Source of the DNA: a virus
Strand: one strand, 5' to 3'
Virus record (IMG/VR): IMGVR_UViG_3300023084_000095
Span: 1-27,683 of that record
DNA: 27,683 nt
In this document: positions 532-7,957 of the stretch, in pieces
Layout of the letters: every line of letters begins with the position of its first letter
How positions within the stretch are numbered: position 1 is the first letter of the stretch
The notes under the pieces: model-generated
Database searches by the model: none
What the model saw: only the letters and a program-made list of their open reading frames with translations
What the model was told of the DNA's origin: nothing
Translations under genes and position numbers: made by a program

Positions 532-699
532 CTAATAGTCCTCTTCATCTCCATAATCTATTTCTAGTTCTTCTTCTAGCTCAAGTTTTGTTCCACAAAA
601 AACACAAAACTCTGCTTCATAATAATTTTCATCCATATCGTGTACAACCTTAAAACAGCCTTCACACGACATACATTCTAATATATTAGGTTTCGGCAT
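532..699 (-). CDS. Small zinc-ribbon protein
   Basis: This is a 55-residue ORF. It has two Cys pairs, CMSCEGC near residues 9-15 and CVFCG near 32-36, which is the layout of a small treble-clef or zinc-ribbon fold. The C-terminus is strongly acidic (LELEEELEIDYGDEEDY). The start ATG lies inside the last codons of the dCMP deaminase gene (14-base overlap) and the stop abuts the next ATG, so translation is likely coupled. Small acidic zinc-ribbon proteins are common in T4-like phages and usually have no assigned role. A part in transcription or in binding a DNA-metabolism enzyme is possible but not shown. The overlap pattern and Cys spacing support a real gene. Confidence 0.7.
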   Translation of the reverse strand: MPKPNILECMSCEGCFKVVHDMDENYYEAEFCVFCGTKLELEEELEIDYGDEEDY

Positions 700-1111
700 C
701 TATTTCTCCTACTTGCGAAATCTTAACGCCCGCTTTGTGTAGAAATTCTAGTCCGGATTTATCCCTATAATCATTACCCCAATAAACCTCAGATATGCCT
801 GCTTGATAAATCAACTTAGAACATTCTAAACAAGGTGCGTGTGTCGTATATAGTAAAGCACCTTGCCCACTCTCTGTACTCCTAGCTAACTTAGCAATAG
901 CATTTGTTTCTGCATGTAATACTTCTGGCTTCGTTACATTGTTTTCATCTTCACAGGCATTATCCCAGCCTGAAGGTGTGCCGTTGTAGCCTAGACTAAT
1001 GGCTCTACCATCTTTCCATATGACACAACCCACTTGTAATCTTTTTGCTCTTGACAGTTTAGATACAGACTGTGCCATCTCATAAACTACAGCACTTAGT
1101 CTTTTATTCAT
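686..1111 (-). CDS. dCMP deaminase (deoxycytidylate deaminase)
   Basis: The enzyme converts dCMP to dUMP, the substrate for the ThyX encoded upstream at 6246-6938. The zinc-dependent deaminase signature is complete: H66-A-E68 (ligand and catalytic Glu) and P93-C94-L-E-C97. The N-terminal helix and the substrate-binding GYNGTPSGWDN segment near residues 41-51 match phage and bacterial dCMP deaminases. I chose the ATG at 1111 because it forms an ATGA overlap with the nrdB stop and has GGGGAG five bases upstream. An in-frame ATG at 1135 would add eight residues but overlaps nrdB further. The 141-residue length is normal for the short bacterial and phage type. Order nrdB, dCMP deaminase is typical of phage nucleotide operons. 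Confidence 0.93.
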   Translation of the reverse strand: MNKRLSAVVYEMAQSVSKLSRAKRLQVGCVIWKDGRAISLGYNGTPSGWDNACEDENNVTKPEVLHAETNAIAKLARSTESGQGALLYTTHAPCLECSKLIYQAGISEVYWGNDYRDKSGLEFLHKAGVKISQVGEIDAET

Positions 1112-2091
1112 GAAACTCCCCAAACATCCGACCAATCTCCGGACAATGCACCCCGTGCATAGTCTGTTGCTCTGTTCTCAAAGAAGTTTGTATGGGTCGG
1201 GGCGTTGATCATTTCCTCTACCCAAGGCAAAGGATTCTTTTTAACTTTAAAAATACCTCTCATACCTAAACTAATAAGACGTCTGTCTGCAATATAACGA
1301 ATATACTTTTTAACTTCCTCGGGTGTCAATCCTTCCATAGGACCCATAGCAAATGCTAAATCAATAAACTTATCTTCAAGCTCTACCATCTTTTCTGCAA
1401 TAGTGTAAATCTGAGACTTCAGTTTGTCATTCCAAATATCTAGATTTTCTTGTACATATTCTTTAAACAACTTAATCATGTTCTCAGCATGCTGTGTTTC
1501 ATCAACGATAGACCATGTAATAATCTGTCCCATTCCTTTCATCTTGCCATGACGTGGAAAGTTTAACAACATAATGAATGATGAAAAGAGTTGCATGCCT
1601 TCCGTGAAGGCAGAGAAAGCGGCAATGTTAGTTGCAACAGATTCTCTTGTGCCATTGGCATTAGACAGATCAGTAAAGTAATCGTGCTTATCGCGCATAG
1701 CCTCATATTCAAGAAATTCATTGTAAGTAGACTCCGGCATTCCTAGTGTTTCAATTAAATGGCTATAGGCAGCAACATGTAGTGCTTCCCTTGCCGCAAA
1801 TCCAGCAAGCATCATTCTTATTTCTGGTTGTGGGAAATAAGGTAAATAATTTGTTACATAGCCACCTGCAACATCAATATCTCCCTGTGTGAAAAAGCGA
1901 AAGATGTTTGTGAGGAAAGCCTGTTCCTCTTTTGTTAAACGATTCTTCCAATCCTTTACGTCTTCTCCCATAGGAACTTCGGTGTGTAGCCAATGAGACT
2001 GCTCGTGTTTTAGCCAAGCATCATAGGCCCATGGGTAATTGAAGGGCTTAAAATAAGTCCTTTCGTCTGTTAGTTTTAATTTTTTTGACAT
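1108..2091 (-). CDS. nrdB: Class Ia ribonucleotide reductase, beta (radical) subunit
   Basis: This is the small subunit that generates the tyrosyl radical used by NrdA to reduce ribonucleotides. The diiron ligands are visible: D71, E102, H105, E164, E198 and H201. The radical tyrosine fits Y109 in E102-A-L-H-V-A-A-Y109, the same spacing as E115, H118 and Y122 of the E. coli enzyme. The protein has 327 residues, somewhat shorter than E. coli NrdB. It is separated from nrdA by two PP-loop ATPase genes rather than lying next to it, which is unusual. It overlaps dCMP deaminase by ATGA, so the two are probably translationally coupled. Expression is likely early or middle, from the sigma-70-type promoters at 7002 and 7990. 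Confidence 0.96.
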   Translation of the reverse strand: MSKKLKLTDERTYFKPFNYPWAYDAWLKHEQSHWLHTEVPMGEDVKDWKNRLTKEEQAFLTNIFRFFTQGDIDVAGGYVTNYLPYFPQPEIRMMLAGFAAREALHVAAYSHLIETLGMPESTYNEFLEYEAMRDKHDYFTDLSNANGTRESVATNIAAFSAFTEGMQLFSSFIMLLNFPRHGKMKGMGQIITWSIVDETQHAENMIKLFKEYVQENLDIWNDKLKSQIYTIAEKMVELEDKFIDLAFAMGPMEGLTPEEVKKYIRYIADRRLISLGMRGIFKVKKNPLPWVEEMINAPTHTNFFENRATDYARGALSGDWSDVWGVS

Positions 2092-2101
2092 TATTCTTCT
2101 C

Positions 2102-2734
2102 TTAATTTTTAAATACCTTTTCTATTGCCCAATGACGTTCCACACACCAAAAACATATATTACAAGGTTCTGTTACATTAGGAGTAACACAACTCCAAGT
2201 CTCATCTAGAATAAAATTTTTGAGCCAATAGTCCTTTTGATCTTTGACGATTTGTAAAATATCGTCTTTATATAAATTTCTGAAGGGACATATTCCTATT
2301 AATTTCCCTCCTGTTTTTTGTTCAAACCCATCATACAATTCAAAGGTCCTAGGTTTTGTAGGAAAAAACAAAGGATCTATGTTAAAAGCATTAAAGTCAT
2401 ATGGGTTTTCTCCTGTCATTACAATATCAACTAGATGCCCGTCAAACAAACTTTGTACACCTCTAGCAACACATAACACATCGCTTTCATCAGTCTCAAA
2501 ATATTCACCTACAATGACATTTTCTGTAGGAGCAAATCCATATCTATCGTGCATCCATTTAACCATTTTGTTAGCTCTGTCTGCAGAACCATCTGGTTTA
2601 GGTGCAGTAAGAGGTATTAATGTTTGTCCTCTTTCTTGACATTTTTTAGCTACCAAGTAGTAAAGTATTGTGCTATCAATACCACCTGATACCATAACAC
2701 CTATTCTTTTATCTTTAGGGAAATCTATTTCCAT
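2102..2734 (-). CDS. QueC-like PP-loop ATPase, copy 1
   Basis: This 210-residue protein has an N-terminal PP-loop, SGGIDS at residues 16-21, that adenylates a carboxyl or carbonyl oxygen in the N-type ATP pyrophosphatase family. The C-terminus carries C182, C191, C194 and C197 (CNICFWC), the zinc-knuckle layout of QueC, 7-cyano-7-deazaguanine synthase. QueC makes preQ0 from CDG; phages with full queC, queD, queE and folE sets use it to replace or modify guanine in DNA. No such partner genes are visible here, so the substrate is uncertain. It shares the motif plan of the next gene upstream (2734-3378), overlapping it as TAATG, so the two look like a diverged duplication. Other PP-loop functions cannot be excluded. 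Confidence 0.82.
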   Translation of the reverse strand: MEIDFPKDKRIGVMVSGGIDSTILYYLVAKKCQERGQTLIPLTAPKPDGSADRANKMVKWMHDRYGFAPTENVIVGEYFETDESDVLCVARGVQSLFDGHLVDIVMTGENPYDFNAFNIDPLFFPTKPRTFELYDGFEQKTGGKLIGICPFRNLYKDDILQIVKDQKDYWLKNFILDETWSCVTPNVTEPCNICFWCVERHWAIEKVFKN

Positions 2735-3378
2735 TAATTTGTTCCTGTGTCTAAGTACCCTGCCTTTTCAAATGCCCATTGTCTTTCTGTACACCAATAA
2801 CATTTATTACATCTACCTTCTTGTAGTTCTGTGCAACTATGTGTAATTGGCATAATAACGTCTGCAATGCCAATGTCAAATCCCAACTTAATAGTTTTAT
2901 CTTTAGTGTGGTTTTCAAAAGGCCAAGCGACAAATTCTCTCATCCATTCTTCAGGTTCAAACCTGGGATGTGGATCCTCTTTTTCATGTCTTTGATGTAC
3001 TTCATCATCAAAGGCCGTCATGCCGACAAACAAAAAGTCCACTAACCTGTCGTCCGCCGTCTCTCCAAATATATCCCAAGCACCATTAGTTACATAATCC
3101 CAAGGATTATTGGACAATTCTTTTCCTACAACTGTGGGCTCTTGATAACTTACCCCTAGTTTTTTGCTAAGTGTTTTTATAACATTCTGACTTGCTACTA
3201 AAGCACCATCTAATTTAGGGACAACAAAAGGTTCACAACTCATTCCCCTTTCAGTACATATTTTTTTAACCATATACCATAAACAAGCGCTGTCCCATCC
3301 ACCGGAAACCATTACGCCAACTCTTTTATTTTCTTCAGGTATATATTTTTTTATATCATCCCAAACAATATCTTGCAT
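2734..3378 (-). CDS. QueC-like PP-loop ATPase, copy 2
   Basis: This is a 214-residue paralogue of the neighbouring copy. The PP-loop reads SGGWDS at residues 25-30 and the C-terminal zinc motif uses C182, C190, C193 and C196 (CNKCYWC), followed by a TERQWAFEKAG helix that mirrors ERHWAIEKVF in copy 1. The middle region differs greatly: it carries a charged insert with HQRHEKEDPHP in place of the NPYDFNAFN part of copy 1, so substrate pockets may differ. The gene begins five bases after nrdA ends and runs into copy 1 by TAATG. Sitting between nrdA and nrdB suggests a role in nucleotide or base metabolism, such as making a modified purine, but this is inference from position. Confidence 0.82.
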   Translation of the reverse strand: MQDIVWDDIKKYIPEENKRVGVMVSGGWDSACLWYMVKKICTERGMSCEPFVVPKLDGALVASQNVIKTLSKKLGVSYQEPTVVGKELSNNPWDYVTNGAWDIFGETADDRLVDFLFVGMTAFDDEVHQRHEKEDPHPRFEPEEWMREFVAWPFENHTKDKTIKLGFDIGIADVIMPITHSCTELQEGRCNKCYWCTERQWAFEKAGYLDTGTN

Positions 3379-3382
3379 ACTA

Positions 3383-5179
3383 TTAACCTTCGCACGCTAG
3401 GCATTCACCATCTGCTATTTGATTTAAATCAATCTCTTTAATAATTTCTCTTTCTATTCTTTTAGAAACTTTGTCTGCCTTACCAACTTTTTCTGAACGA
3501 CAATAGTACAATGTTTTAAGTTCATTTTTCCAAGCAAGGAAGTGTACTGCGTGTAAATATTTTTTATGTACGTCAGGCCTAAAAAATAAATTTAAGGACT
3601 GTGCTTGATCTATATAAACTTGTCTATTGGAGGCATGCTCTACAACCCAGCGCTGATCAATTTCCATTGCTGTTTTGTATATAGCCTTCTCTTCATCTGT
3701 TAAACAATTTAAATGCTGTACAGATCCATCGTTGGCAATTATTGACGACCATATTTCGTCATAATCAAGTTTTTTGTTATCTTCAACCTTGTCTTTAATA
3801 AGAGAATCCAAATACTTATTTTTGTTGAGATAAGATCCAGATAACGTGTCCTGTCTGTAAGCATTCGCTCTAAAAGGTTCAATAGACGGCGAAGTGTTTC
3901 CCATGATAATACTGCTACTAGCATTGGGAGCGATAGCCATAACGTGACTAAATCTTCTTCCCGTGCCCTCCGCGTCAGGAGCCTCACCTCTTCCACTACC
4001 CAATTCAATGTTTGCTTCATCTAATTTACTCCTAATGTGCCTAAACATTCTAATATTAGCACCTACTGCTGCTGAGCTTTCCCATGCCATATTATTTTTT
4101 TGTAAATAGGCGTGGAATCCTAAAGCACCTACTCCAATGCTACGTTCACGCATTGCAGAGAACTTAGCCCTAGATACAACATCTGGTGCGTTGTTAATAA
4201 AAAATTCTAAAACATTGTCTAACATCTCAGCAACGTCAAGTAAAAACTGAGAGTTCTTACTCCAAGAGTCATAATGCTCTAGGTTAACTGAGGATAAACA
4301 ACATACTGCTGTTCTGTCCTTGTCTGTAGGTAAAATAATTTCAGAACAAAGATTAGACTGATGAATTTTAAGTTTTAAATCCTTTTGAAACTGTGGCAAA
4401 TATTTGTTGCTAGTATCAATAAAATGTATGTAGGGTTCTCCTGTCTCCATTCGCAATTCCAAAATCTTTTGCCAAAGAGCTCTAGCAGATACGGTATCTC
4501 GAATTTGTCCACTGTGTGGATCAACTAAATTCCAACCATCATCGGCAGTAGGATCTGTCATACATCTTTCAATGATCTCCATAAAACGATCAGATATATT
4601 AATACCGTGGTGTAAGTTTAGACATCGAACATTTTGATCGCCTGTGGGTTTCCTCATTTCGAGGAACATTATAACATCTGGATGACTAATATCAAGGTAA
4701 GTAGCATAACTGCCACGTCTAGTACGTCCTTGACGGTATGCGAGGCAGGATGCATCATATGTTTTAAGATGAGACATAACGCCAGTAGACTTATCATCAG
4801 ATGATCTGATACCAAACCCGATACCAACACCACCACCCAACATGCTAAGCCAATTTGTTTCAGATAAGTTCTCAACTAATCCCTCCGCAGTATCATTGAT
4901 ATAATTTAAAAAACATGAGATAGGCATACCTTTCTTAGAGCGACCAAAGGATAGTATAGGAGTAGAATAAGAAAGCCAGTGTTTACTGGAGTACTCATAT
5001 AGACGTTGTGCGTGTTCTTCATTGCTACCAAATGCCTTACTTACATAAGCAAAACGCTGTTGTGGGGTTGTTTCATCCTCTAACATGTAGCTTTCCCGCA
5101 GACGGTTGAGCCCTAACTTATCAAATAACTCATCTCTCGATGTGTCTATTTGTATTCCTAAATAATCCTCTTTTGCCAT
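3383..5179 (-). CDS. nrdA: Class I ribonucleotide reductase, alpha (catalytic) subunit
   Basis: The catalytic subunit reduces ribonucleotides with NrdB. Key residues are visible: C89 in the first active-site strand, the NLCSE loop with N276, C278 (thiyl radical) and E280, and the partner cysteine at C293/C294. A Tyr-Tyr pair in LYYCRSE near the C-terminus passes the radical, and the final ECLACEG is the redox CxxC tail that thioredoxin or glutaredoxin reloads. At 598 residues it is much shorter than E. coli NrdA (761). The missing part is the N-terminal ATP-cone, so the activity site that senses dATP appears absent. The ATG forms TAAATG with the upstream glycosyltransferase stop. It leads the nrdA, PP-loop pair, nrdB order. 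Confidence 0.96.
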   Translation of the reverse strand: MAKEDYLGIQIDTSRDELFDKLGLNRLRESYMLEDETTPQQRFAYVSKAFGSNEEHAQRLYEYSSKHWLSYSTPILSFGRSKKGMPISCFLNYINDTAEGLVENLSETNWLSMLGGGVGIGFGIRSSDDKSTGVMSHLKTYDASCLAYRQGRTRRGSYATYLDISHPDVIMFLEMRKPTGDQNVRCLNLHHGINISDRFMEIIERCMTDPTADDGWNLVDPHSGQIRDTVSARALWQKILELRMETGEPYIHFIDTSNKYLPQFQKDLKLKIHQSNLCSEIILPTDKDRTAVCCLSSVNLEHYDSWSKNSQFLLDVAEMLDNVLEFFINNAPDVVSRAKFSAMRERSIGVGALGFHAYLQKNNMAWESSAAVGANIRMFRHIRSKLDEANIELGSGRGEAPDAEGTGRRFSHVMAIAPNASSSIIMGNTSPSIEPFRANAYRQDTLSGSYLNKNKYLDSLIKDKVEDNKKLDYDEIWSSIIANDGSVQHLNCLTDEEKAIYKTAMEIDQRWVVEHASNRQVYIDQAQSLNLFFRPDVHKKYLHAVHFLAWKNELKTLYYCRSEKVGKADKVSKRIEREIIKEIDLNQIADGECLACEG

Positions 5180-6256
5180 TTATGTTTTCTCTCTGTAGTC
5201 TTGATCAAGAACGCCCTCACCTGTATAGGAACGTATCTCAAAATGCTTGTTCTTATAATCTATGCCACAAAAGTCTTTATAATCTTCTATAGATCTAACT
5301 TTTCCCACACCATAGATTCCCTTTAACTTGCCAGTATATAATTCTTTTTGTCTTTCATTAGACTGTTTGTCCATTGTTTCTCTATCTATTTCAGGCTCTC
5401 GTTGCGAGTCAACATCACTGTCCCAATAACAAAATCTGTAATCCCTTGGATAATAATGCCTTGAGGGATTTCCTGACATGTGAAATATGTCGTAACCATT
5501 GGTCCAGGACCTCAATGCTAAACTTGGTTCCTCACCTATAAACAATAACTTCCCATCATAAGGAACTTCCTTACACCATTTACCTATAGTAAAAACTGTA
5601 TTTGCACTAAACAAAAATCCTTTGATAAATGGAAATTTACTTTCGTACCATCTTCCCTGTGTTGAAAATTTATAATGGTCTGGTTTTTCTTCAAACTCTA
5701 TCTGAGGTTTACCTATGTTACTTCCACCGTCCCAAATATCGCTCTCTCCACCTACTGTAAGTGCATTCATTGAATACATACCTGTTCTTAAATTTCTAGG
5801 TTTAGATGATTCGTATTTAATAGGATTGTTCCATATATCATGGTCCTCTGCTACCATACCAGGAGGATAGCAAGTTATCAAAGGCCTTTCGTGAAATAAT
5901 AATAAATGACGAAGGTTATTAATATATATTAAATCCCAGTTATCTTCAAACCCTGTATGAGAATCAAACTGAGAATAAAACTCTTCGCCATTATACATTT
6001 CCTGTGTTTTTGCTCTAGCCCAACAACAACCCTGTGTTTCAAAGGGTGATATCAATTCATATTTTAATTGATTGTTGTCTAATAATTTTTTAAAAAACGG
6101 ATGCTTTAAGTCTAAGGCTTCTCCTGGCATGGCTTGTTCAACCACACCAAAGACAAGATTATCTGGCTCAGCAGCATTAGCGTATGCCGTTTTAATTGTA
6201 AACGTTAGAAGAGGATCCCTATAACTAGCTAGGGCAACAAAAATTTTAGAGTTCAT
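5180..6256 (-). CDS. GlcNAc-transferase-type glycosyltransferase (PF11397-like)
   Basis: The 358-residue protein starts with IFVALASYRDP and has QFDSH at residues 96-100. These fit the GlcNAc transferase family typified by Skp1 hydroxyproline GlcNAc-transferase, where the DSH motif binds the metal and nucleotide sugar. A later GEEPSLALRSW segment and a PSRHYYPRDY stretch also match this family as I recall it. The gene overlaps thyX by 11 bases and abuts nrdA, so it is expressed with DNA-precursor genes and not with tail genes. One reading is that it adds a sugar to a modified DNA base or a host target during early infection. Alternatively it decorates surface glycans. The acceptor cannot be read from sequence. 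Confidence 0.8.
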   Translation of the reverse strand: MNSKIFVALASYRDPLLTFTIKTAYANAAEPDNLVFGVVEQAMPGEALDLKHPFFKKLLDNNQLKYELISPFETQGCCWARAKTQEMYNGEEFYSQFDSHTGFEDNWDLIYINNLRHLLLFHERPLITCYPPGMVAEDHDIWNNPIKYESSKPRNLRTGMYSMNALTVGGESDIWDGGSNIGKPQIEFEEKPDHYKFSTQGRWYESKFPFIKGFLFSANTVFTIGKWCKEVPYDGKLLFIGEEPSLALRSWTNGYDIFHMSGNPSRHYYPRDYRFCYWDSDVDSQREPEIDRETMDKQSNERQKELYTGKLKGIYGVGKVRSIEDYKDFCGIDYKNKHFEIRSYTGEGVLDQDYREKT

Positions 6257-6938
6257 TAACTGCCTTTGCTACATCTGGAAAGTGTTGAGATAAAATGTCC
6301 CAGCATTTTTGAGCTACCAGACGATGCTCCTTTTGTGTTCCTTGTTCTGTTCTTAACATACAATAATGAATCCAGGAACGCAAATTTCCTGCCATATATA
6401 ATGTGGTTTCCGTATTACCTTCAGGCAATACTGCACGAGCCTGTTCTTTAGCAATGCCGTTATCCAATGCCCACTTATAAACTTCCTGTGATTTATTAAT
6501 AACTTCCCTTTGCCTCATATTCCATTCTTCGTAAAGACGCTCATGTTGAGTTTTATTACCACCTTTTCCAAAGTCCTCAGGCAAGTCTAAATCAATACTG
6601 TTTTGCCTATTCTTTTTATCTTGTAGTCTAGCTTCGCGATTTATAAAATTAGTTGATTCAGCATATCTTTGACTAAACTCCTGAAAACTAAAGCTACGGT
6701 GCCTAATAATCTGTCTACTAATGTCTCGGGTAGTCTTAATCTCCATGGTGACAGAAACCATCTCAAAAGGGCTCCAATGAGCATTTTTGATTAGGTATTT
6801 TAGCAATTTAGGTGACGTTTCAGCATTGTTTTGATTGCCAGGGTTACTTACACGGGCGGCGTAAGAAATAAGTTCATTAGCACTATGACAACCCGTTGCC
6901 GCTGAAGGTTGTGTGATCCCTACTAAATTCACATTCAT
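6246..6938 (-). CDS. thyX: Flavin-dependent thymidylate synthase
   Basis: ThyX methylates dUMP to dTMP using methylene-tetrahydrofolate, FAD and NADPH. The diagnostic RHRx7SxR motif is intact: R79-H80-R81, seven residues, S89-Q-R91. The preceding WSPFE segment near residue 55 is also typical. The length of 230 residues is normal. I chose the ATG at 6938 because it forms TAATG with the primase stop and has GGAG nine bases upstream; ATGs at 6944 and 6953 would add two or five residues. Phages carrying ThyX do not need the host thyA. With dCMP deaminase and NrdAB it completes the CDP to dTMP route. A perfect sigma-70 promoter at 7002-7030 lies about 60 bases upstream. Confidence 0.96.
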   Translation of the reverse strand: MNVNLVGITQPSAATGCHSANELISYAARVSNPGNQNNAETSPKLLKYLIKNAHWSPFEMVSVTMEIKTTRDISRQIIRHRSFSFQEFSQRYAESTNFINREARLQDKKNRQNSIDLDLPEDFGKGGNKTQHERLYEEWNMRQREVINKSQEVYKWALDNGIAKEQARAVLPEGNTETTLYMAGNLRSWIHYCMLRTEQGTQKEHRLVAQKCWDILSQHFPDVAKAVNEL

Positions 6939-7957
6939 TAACATTTTCTCCATTGTGTGAAATTTAATTTTGCTCTCAAACCTGAGAATGTATTTTTACT
7001 TATTATAGAGGTTATTTCTGCTATTGTCAAACCAGATAATACCATATCGTTTATGTCCTTTTCCTCTATTGTATCAGGCCAAAGACAAACGTTTTCACCT
7101 GCATTAATTGATTTTTCTATTAACCTACAGATCTCTAGATTACGTGGCTGATTATCAAATATAATCGTGTAATCCTTTAATCCCAAATCAGAAACTCTGT
7201 TAAATGCTGATCCACTAGCAGCGATAGAGTTATCCAAAAAGAGACTATCAATAGGTCCTTCAACTACCATGACAGTTTTACTATCATCAATATCTTCCAT
7301 ACCAAAGATAGTAGGAGCATCCTCATCTATCTTTAAATTTATATATCTTAAGTTTTCGCCCCTTATACCTCGCATTGCCATACCTGTTAATTTACCTTGA
7401 CTATTAATAAAGGGCAATATAAGTCTCGGTTGAGCTACAGTTAGACTGCTAGTGTATTTAGTATTTAATTGTGCTGCTTTTCGTATGTCGTCTAAAAAAT
7501 ATAACCTATTATATGTATGTTCTGGAATAGCTCTCGATTTAACATATTGGATAACTTCATGATCTTCTGGTAATGTATCTAGTCTATCCATTAATTCATC
7601 TAATAGGGTTTTTGGGCGAACTTTAGGCTCCTTAAAAGTGAGGTTAAAGTCAGGAGTTTTATTCGCCCGATTACCCGCAATACCTTCTGAATATCTTTCA
7701 AGTGTGTATTGTTTATGTAGCTCTCCGTCTAACAATTCTAGGAGACCTCCGAAAGTTTTACCCGCACCACAGTTATGACATTTATAGAACATGTCATTCT
7801 TAACCTTGTACAGGTATCCGCGTGCTTTGTTTTTCTTTGTGGAACTATCACCACAGATAGGACATCTGAAGTTGAAAAGATACTGATCCTTTCGCTTGTA
7901 ACGTTCTAAGCGAAAGGCAACCATATTAATATATTTTAAATCGACGTATAAAGACAT
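6938..7957 (-). CDS. DNA primase (zinc finger plus TOPRIM)
   Basis: The 339-residue protein has an N-terminal Cys4 zinc finger, C32-P-I-C35 and C60-H-N-C63, as in phage and DnaG primases, used for template recognition. The TOPRIM core follows, with E233-G-P-I-D237 and D268-N-Q-P, which bind metal for primer synthesis. This organisation fits T4 gp61-type primases, which work with a separate helicase. No helicase is in this window. The ATG at 7957 directly follows a run of seven T and has no Shine-Dalgarno; an in-frame ATG at 7924 is also without one. A short leader from the promoter at 7990-8018 would carry the message. It is the first gene of the DNA-precursor operon. Confidence 0.9.
   Translation of the reverse strand: MSLYVDLKYINMVAFRLERYKRKDQYLFNFRCPICGDSSTKKNKARGYLYKVKNDMFYKCHNCGAGKTFGGLLELLDGELHKQYTLERYSEGIAGNRANKTPDFNLTFKEPKVRPKTLLDELMDRLDTLPEDHEVIQYVKSRAIPEHTYNRLYFLDDIRKAAQLNTKYTSSLTVAQPRLILPFINSQGKLTGMAMRGIRGENLRYINLKIDEDAPTIFGMEDIDDSKTVMVVEGPIDSLFLDNSIAASGSAFNRVSDLGLKDYTIIFDNQPRNLEICRLIEKSINAGENVCLWPDTIEEKDINDMVLSGLTIAEITSIISKNTFSGLRAKLNFTQWRKC
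7002..7030 (-). promoter_or_regulatory. Sigma-70-type promoter inside primase gene
   Basis: On the minus strand TTGACA (7030-7025) and TATAAT (7007-7002) match the consensus exactly, with a 17-base spacer. It lies in the 3' end of the primase gene and would start transcription near 6995, just ahead of thyX. It could raise thyX, glycosyltransferase and nrd expression over primase. Confidence 0.7.

Follow-up and report, generated by a model that had tools for sequence, protein, structure and literature searches.

The DNA of Vibrio phage nt-1 contains dPreQ0, and the pathway responsible comprises FolE, QueD, QueE, QueC and DpdA2 (Hutinet 2019, PMC6884629). The signature of canonical QueC was defined by Libby et al. 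2026, and Y35, R99, Y131 and Y189 are essential in the E. coli enzyme (PMC13329287). The canonical motifs are also missing from QatC, which fails to rescue queuosine (PMC13329287); two threonines replace its Y and D substrate residues (PMC13279940). In Synechococcus phage S-B43, CmoY converts carboxymethylcytosine to the amide in DNA (PMC12783734).

Here, we analysed two QueC-like genes, QC2 and QC1, located in a virus record of 27,683 bases (the window, i.e. the whole stretch of DNA analysed), which is a fragment. G002, an IMG/VR contig of 162,417 bases from a marine T4-like phage, is approximately 99.9% identical to the window over the whole length of the latter. The pair most likely constitutes a non-standard version of the missing step of a 7-deazaguanine pathway, rather than an isolated unknown system.

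Gene organisation between nrdA and nrdB

The minus strand of the window harbours, in this order, a probable DNA primase gene (6938..7957), thyX (6246..6953; PF02511, E 1.9e-46), a GlcNAc-type glycosyltransferase gene adjoining nrdA (5180..6256; PF11397, E 5.9e-37), nrdA (ribonucleotide reductase large subunit, 3383..5179; PF02867, E 5.5e-103), QC2 (2734..3378), QC1 (2102..2734), nrdB (ribonucleotide reductase small subunit, 1108..2091; PF00268, E 4.2e-76) and a dCMP deaminase gene (686..1135; PF00383, E 2.4e-21). The primase was assigned by gene order and by-eye similarity; it lies upstream in the same direction of transcription, and Pfam gave weak zinc-ribbon matches only. The neighbours with Pfam matches in the window are nucleotide-metabolism genes.

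QC2 encodes a QueC-family PP-loop ATPase of 214 amino acids, and QC1 a diverged paralogue of 210 amino acids. There are 4 nt between the nrdA stop and the QC2 start, and 10 nt between QC1 and the nrdB start. The QC2 and QC1 reading frames overlap in TAATG, which suggests translational coupling. The original prediction described a tandem QueC-like pair splitting nrdA from nrdB; the pair is real, and its coordinates and description were right. The arrangement is not due to chance, since QueC-like genes are found between nrdA and nrdB in 51 loci.

Family membership and sequence motifs

QC2 and QC1 are paralogues (33% identity, E=2e-27), and both passed the Pfam QueC profile (PF06508; 33 and 28.8 bits respectively, cut-off 22). 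The SGGxDS PP-loop is present in both (VSGGWDS and VSGGIDS) and in all 26 nrd-clade sequences. Each protein also retains the four cysteines of the C(x)8CxxCxxC zinc site of canonical QueC (C182-x7-C190-x2-C193-x2-C196 in QC2 and C182-x8-C191-x2-C194-x2-C197 in QC1), so their earlier description as PP-loop/zinc-site paralogues holds. In the nrd clade as a whole, the PP-loop, K and the four cysteines are invariant or almost so.

Neither QC1 nor QC2 has the catalytic motifs of canonical QueC (YxQxHxxE, VPxRN and YPDC). Among the 26 nrd-clade sequences, a strict Y.Q.H and VPxRN were never found and YPDC was found once, while 25 members have a PKxDG-type motif. The NCBIfam equivalog TIGR00364 gave 20.3 and 23.9 bits for the pair, far under its cut-off of 150.3. 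The Cap9 motifs YxDC and Y/FxQ(x)5E and the QatC motifs WxR and C(x)19CGxCxxRR were absent from the sequences read. QC1 scored below the Pfam cut-offs for asparagine synthase (PF00733, 18.1 vs. 21 bits) and NAD synthase (PF02540, 12.9 vs. 21 bits). The pair belongs to the PF06508 superfamily, but is not canonical QueC.

Single sequences retrieved no meaningful match from the PDB; the family profile alone did so, and its best match was QueC 3BL5 (E 4.5e-8, 191 positions, full length), which argues against the simple asparagine-synthase or sulfur-transfer enzymes considered in the original prediction. The AlphaFold2 (AF2) models were confident (pLDDT 91.5 for QC2 and 88.2 for QC1). In Foldseek searches, the best match of the QC1 model was a structure of Cap9 in complex with its modified substrate (E 8.5e-8), and Cap9 and QueC (3BL5, E 3e-6) were both within the top three. 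The first matches of the QC2 model were tRNA thiolases such as TtuA; Cap9 was also matched.

Distribution and history of the arrangement

The 51 loci, examined with family alignments, comprise 34 distinct protein sets. The arrangement is carried by about 34 distinct marine phage sequences, mostly with a single copy, and the nrd-located sequences form one clade (SH-aLRT 96). Typically, the nrdA-nrdB gap holds one QC2-type gene, and QC2 is the orthologue of the single copy located there in sister phages G004-G006 (67% identity). The original prediction suggested that the pair may act as a heteromer on a new substrate; a tandem pair is not required, since most relatives carry one copy; nevertheless, the QC2 plus QC1 pairing recurs in a second lineage. 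QC1 clusters with the second copy of the tandem pair of locus L189 (SH-aLRT 97) and shares a 3-residue insertion with it. The paralogue is thus old rather than the product of a recent duplication, and at least two lineages have retained it. The L189-type tandem pair recurs in L314 and L315. We also considered QC1 as a decaying pseudo-copy and rejected this, as the motif residues are retained and the insertion is common to the L189 paralogue.

Close relatives of proteins P0001 and P0002 and of one sister-family protein (see below) were found in none of the 50,697 cultured phages; another nrd-clade protein had one weak partial match among them. A pattern scan of GTDB genomes revealed no cellular relatives.

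The nrdA-nrdB gap seems to collect extra genes. In the second lineage, nrdA is separated from the tandem QueC-like pair by a radical-SAM-like gene (L189:3719-5032 and 5036-6345), and in L193-L196 and L181 a glutaredoxin-like ORF of 60-74 amino acids is found just after the QueC-like gene.

The 7-deazaguanine pathway genes

The original prediction linked the pair to base modification while reporting no queD, queE, folE or dpdA. The latter was an artefact of the fragment, as all four genes are present in G002, in one cluster 50 kb from the tandem pair; the link to DNA base modification is probably right. G002 encodes FolE (E 1e-41), QueD (E 2e-12), QueE (E 1.5e-47), a phosphoribosyltransferase (PRT) and a DpdA2-related protein of 420 amino acids (36% identity over 292 amino acids to DpdA2 of Vibrio phage nt-1, E 1e-55). 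D75, D111 and D264 are invariant in the DpdA2 alignment, and we take them to be the three aspartates expected in a transglycosylase. The DpdA2, FolE, QueD and QueE set of DpdA2-type modifying phages is complete in G002, and the tandem pair accounts for all of its QueC-family matches.

The gene order QueE-PRT-FolE-exonuclease-DpdA2-(DNA-binding protein)-h133-glycosyltransferase-QueD was conserved across 49 DpdA2 loci, where the fragment allows, and in none of them was a QueC present inside the cluster. Gene h133 (L028:8909-9310 in G002, minus strand) corresponds to PHROG 17812, of unknown function; its HRH motif gives it a PTPS-like appearance, and it accompanies the glycosyltransferase and transglycosylase genes. 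The long DpdA2 contigs G007, G008 and G009 had one QueC match each, always between nrdA and nrdB, and G033, which was found via its nrd-located QueC gene, also has DpdA2. Consequently, the nrd-located QueC and the DpdA2 cluster co-occur in all five contigs long enough to test (G002, G007, G008, G009 and G033), a suggestive count which is not independent evidence, because these contigs share ancestry and shared descent may account for the co-occurrence. In Synechococcus phage BUCT-ZZ01 the DpdA2 cluster is complete and the genome contains no QueC; a QueC is encoded by the host species, Synechococcus elongatus. In the cluster vicinity of Acidovorax phage ACP17, Xanthomonas phage X1 and Pseudomonas phage PA5oct, no QueC was found in or near the clusters.

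The original prediction also proposed that the GlcNAc transferase acts with the pair. It does adjoin nrdA, but its distribution does not follow that of the QueC-like genes: among the nrd-QueC loci, PF11397 homologues are confined to this phage and its sisters G004-G006, and we rejected it as a partner. The conserved glycosyltransferase is a different gene, beside dpdA2, and it is this one that is worth pursuing.

A sister family of CxWC proteins

CxWC QueC-like proteins are also carried by other phages, away from the nrd genes. DpdA2 was found in none of the 24 sister-family contigs of at least 62 kb, but seven of the nine contigs of at least 110 kb have FolE and full-length QueE. Five of them (L332 and L335-L338) carry the same glycosyltransferase (47-56% identical), h133 and a TGT-like protein of 510-570 amino acids with a GDSGGYQ-type motif, which looks like a second transglycosylase. 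We therefore rejected the idea, based on the lack of DpdA2, that the sister family is uncoupled from the pathway. This coupling is not universal, since FolE and QueE are present in G018 and G019 with no glycosyltransferase within the stretch examined, and neither FolE nor a full QueE is present in the CxWC genomes G021 and G043. The cultured Pseudomonas phage PA5oct harbours genes for a TGT-like protein, the glycosyltransferase, h133 and QueE together.

The TGT-like proteins lie by the glycosyltransferase and h133 genes, on the minus strand in L338 (7947-9488), L332 (14908-16611) and L337 (15824-17353) and on the plus strand in L335 (3344-4900) and L336 (3300-4919). The motif reads VGDSGGYQI in three of the five, and Pfam and PHROG gave no match for the TGT-like proteins that were scanned. 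CxWC domains also occur, C-terminally or N-terminally, in long radical-SAM ORFs (L045:12252-14744, L081:7143-9641, L084:6060-8681, L102:6213-8696, L083:4901-7171 and L100:1438-2883); a radical-SAM PHROG match was confirmed for L045, L083 and L100, while L081, L084 and L102 were assigned by length and sequence likeness. In L173-L176, QueD relatives (39-45% identical to the G002 QueD) are located apart from FolE/QueE in sister-family phages.

Discussion

The reading we prefer, to which we give an even chance of being correct, is that QC2 and QC1 are divergent QueC-family ATP pyrophosphatases of the phage's own 7-deazaguanine DNA-modification pathway, catalysing an ATP-dependent step on 7-carboxy-7-deazaguanine (CDG). 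CDG would be supplied by FolE, QueD and QueE. Its carboxylate would be activated by adenylation and then amidated by the QueC-like enzyme, yielding ADG, preQ0 or another amide of this kind, which DpdA2 would swap for guanine in DNA, and the glycosyltransferase of the module might decorate the inserted base further. QC1 might serve as a partner subunit or carry out a second, specialised ATP-dependent step. We infer this substrate, reaction and timing, and any heteromer, from the gene content, family, linkage, phylogeny and predicted fold described above. This role is supported by the fact that G002 encodes FolE, QueD, QueE and DpdA2 and no other QueC. Further support comes from the profile and structural matches to QueC, from the conserved PP-loop, K and cysteines of the nrd clade, from the DpdA2 clusters that contain no QueC in phages whose one QueC match lies between nrdA and nrdB, and from the sister-family contigs with FolE and QueE. 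It is weakened by the absence of the canonical catalytic motifs, the low TIGR00364 score and the location of the genes outside the 7-deazaguanine cluster, as well as by the cultured phages with no QueC in their genome (BUCT-ZZ01) or in or near their clusters (ACP17, X1 and PA5oct), and by G021 and G043.

The main rival explanation is that the CxWC proteins act as PP-loop ligases on some unrelated substrate (amidation or thiolation of a nucleotide, tRNA, sugar or protein), and that their link to the module reflects the shared ancestry of T4-like environmental phages. The loss of the canonical substrate motifs, the location in the nrd operon, the fusion of several relatives to radical-SAM proteins, the genomes without FolE and full QueE (G021 and G043) and the thiolase matches of QC2 all fit such ligases. 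However, the C-terminal four-cysteine site and the profile similarity are those of QueC, and FolE/QueE occur together with both families, each time with a different transglycosylase; we consider this explanation somewhat unlikely.

Two further explanations keep the pair close to 7-deazaguanine chemistry. Host QueC might supply preQ0, leaving a later step to the pair, such as the conversion of the installed base to another amide. BUCT-ZZ01, whose module lacks a QueC that its host species has, is consistent with this, and amide ligases of DNA-hypermodifying phages are known (PMC12783734); by contrast, the QueC-family members described so far act on a free base or a protein N-terminus, and we regard a later step as improbable. 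Even less probable is a deazaguanylation of proteins as in Cap9, in which the pair would attach CDG to a protein of the phage or the host and release no free base for DNA. The phage makes its own CDG and the best structural match of QC1 is substrate-bound Cap9, but the Cap9 motifs are absent and a DNA transglycosylase is present.

If the preferred reading, a CDG step in the phage's own pathway, is right, a large group of uncultured marine T4-like phages completes 7-deazaguanine modification of DNA by a QueC without the known catalytic residues, and the module of FolE, QueE, h133, glycosyltransferase and transglycosylase predicts glycosylated 7-deazaguanine in DNA. We found no report of the latter in phage DNA in the literature searched, most subscription papers being outside its scope. 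More speculatively, and rather unlikely in its entirety, the system may be an undescribed hypermodification of phage DNA. A remodelled QueC family, represented in some phages by two specialised paralogues, would make a CDG-derived amide, which DpdA2 or the TGT-like protein would insert and the conserved module glycosyltransferase would glycosylate. Such a system would be common to T4-like marine phages that are uncultured, and jumbo phages in culture, PA5oct among them, would have modules of a related kind. The phages in culture that carry a related module are Acidovorax phage ACP17, Xanthomonas phage X1, Synechococcus phage BUCT-ZZ01 and Pseudomonas phage PA5oct.

The pair resembles canonical QueC (E. 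coli P0AG67; B. subtilis 3BL5) in its PP-loop, zinc site, fold and length (approximately 215 amino acids), and differs from it in the loss of YxQxHxxE, VPxRN and YPDC, with CxWCxERxW in place of CxxC and PKxDG in the nrd clade. The QueC fold is shared with Cap9 (type IV CBASS) and QatC, and in QatC, which has P(x)4TK, the canonical substrate motifs were lost too; however, the Cap9 YxDC and the QatC WxR are absent here, and no defence-operon context was seen. CmoX/CmoY of S-B43 offer a parallel for the role proposed here, that of an ATP-dependent amide ligase through which a phage hypermodifies its DNA, although that system employs an asparagine-synthetase homologue on carboxymethylcytosine and not a QueC with a zinc site. 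Vibrio phage nt-1 shares with our phage a DpdA2 homologue (36% over 292 amino acids), FolE, QueD and the context of phage DNA modification. In nt-1, QueC is canonical and adjoins dpdA2, whereas our phage has non-canonical QueC-like genes within the nrd operon, together with a cluster extended by a glycosyltransferase and h133.
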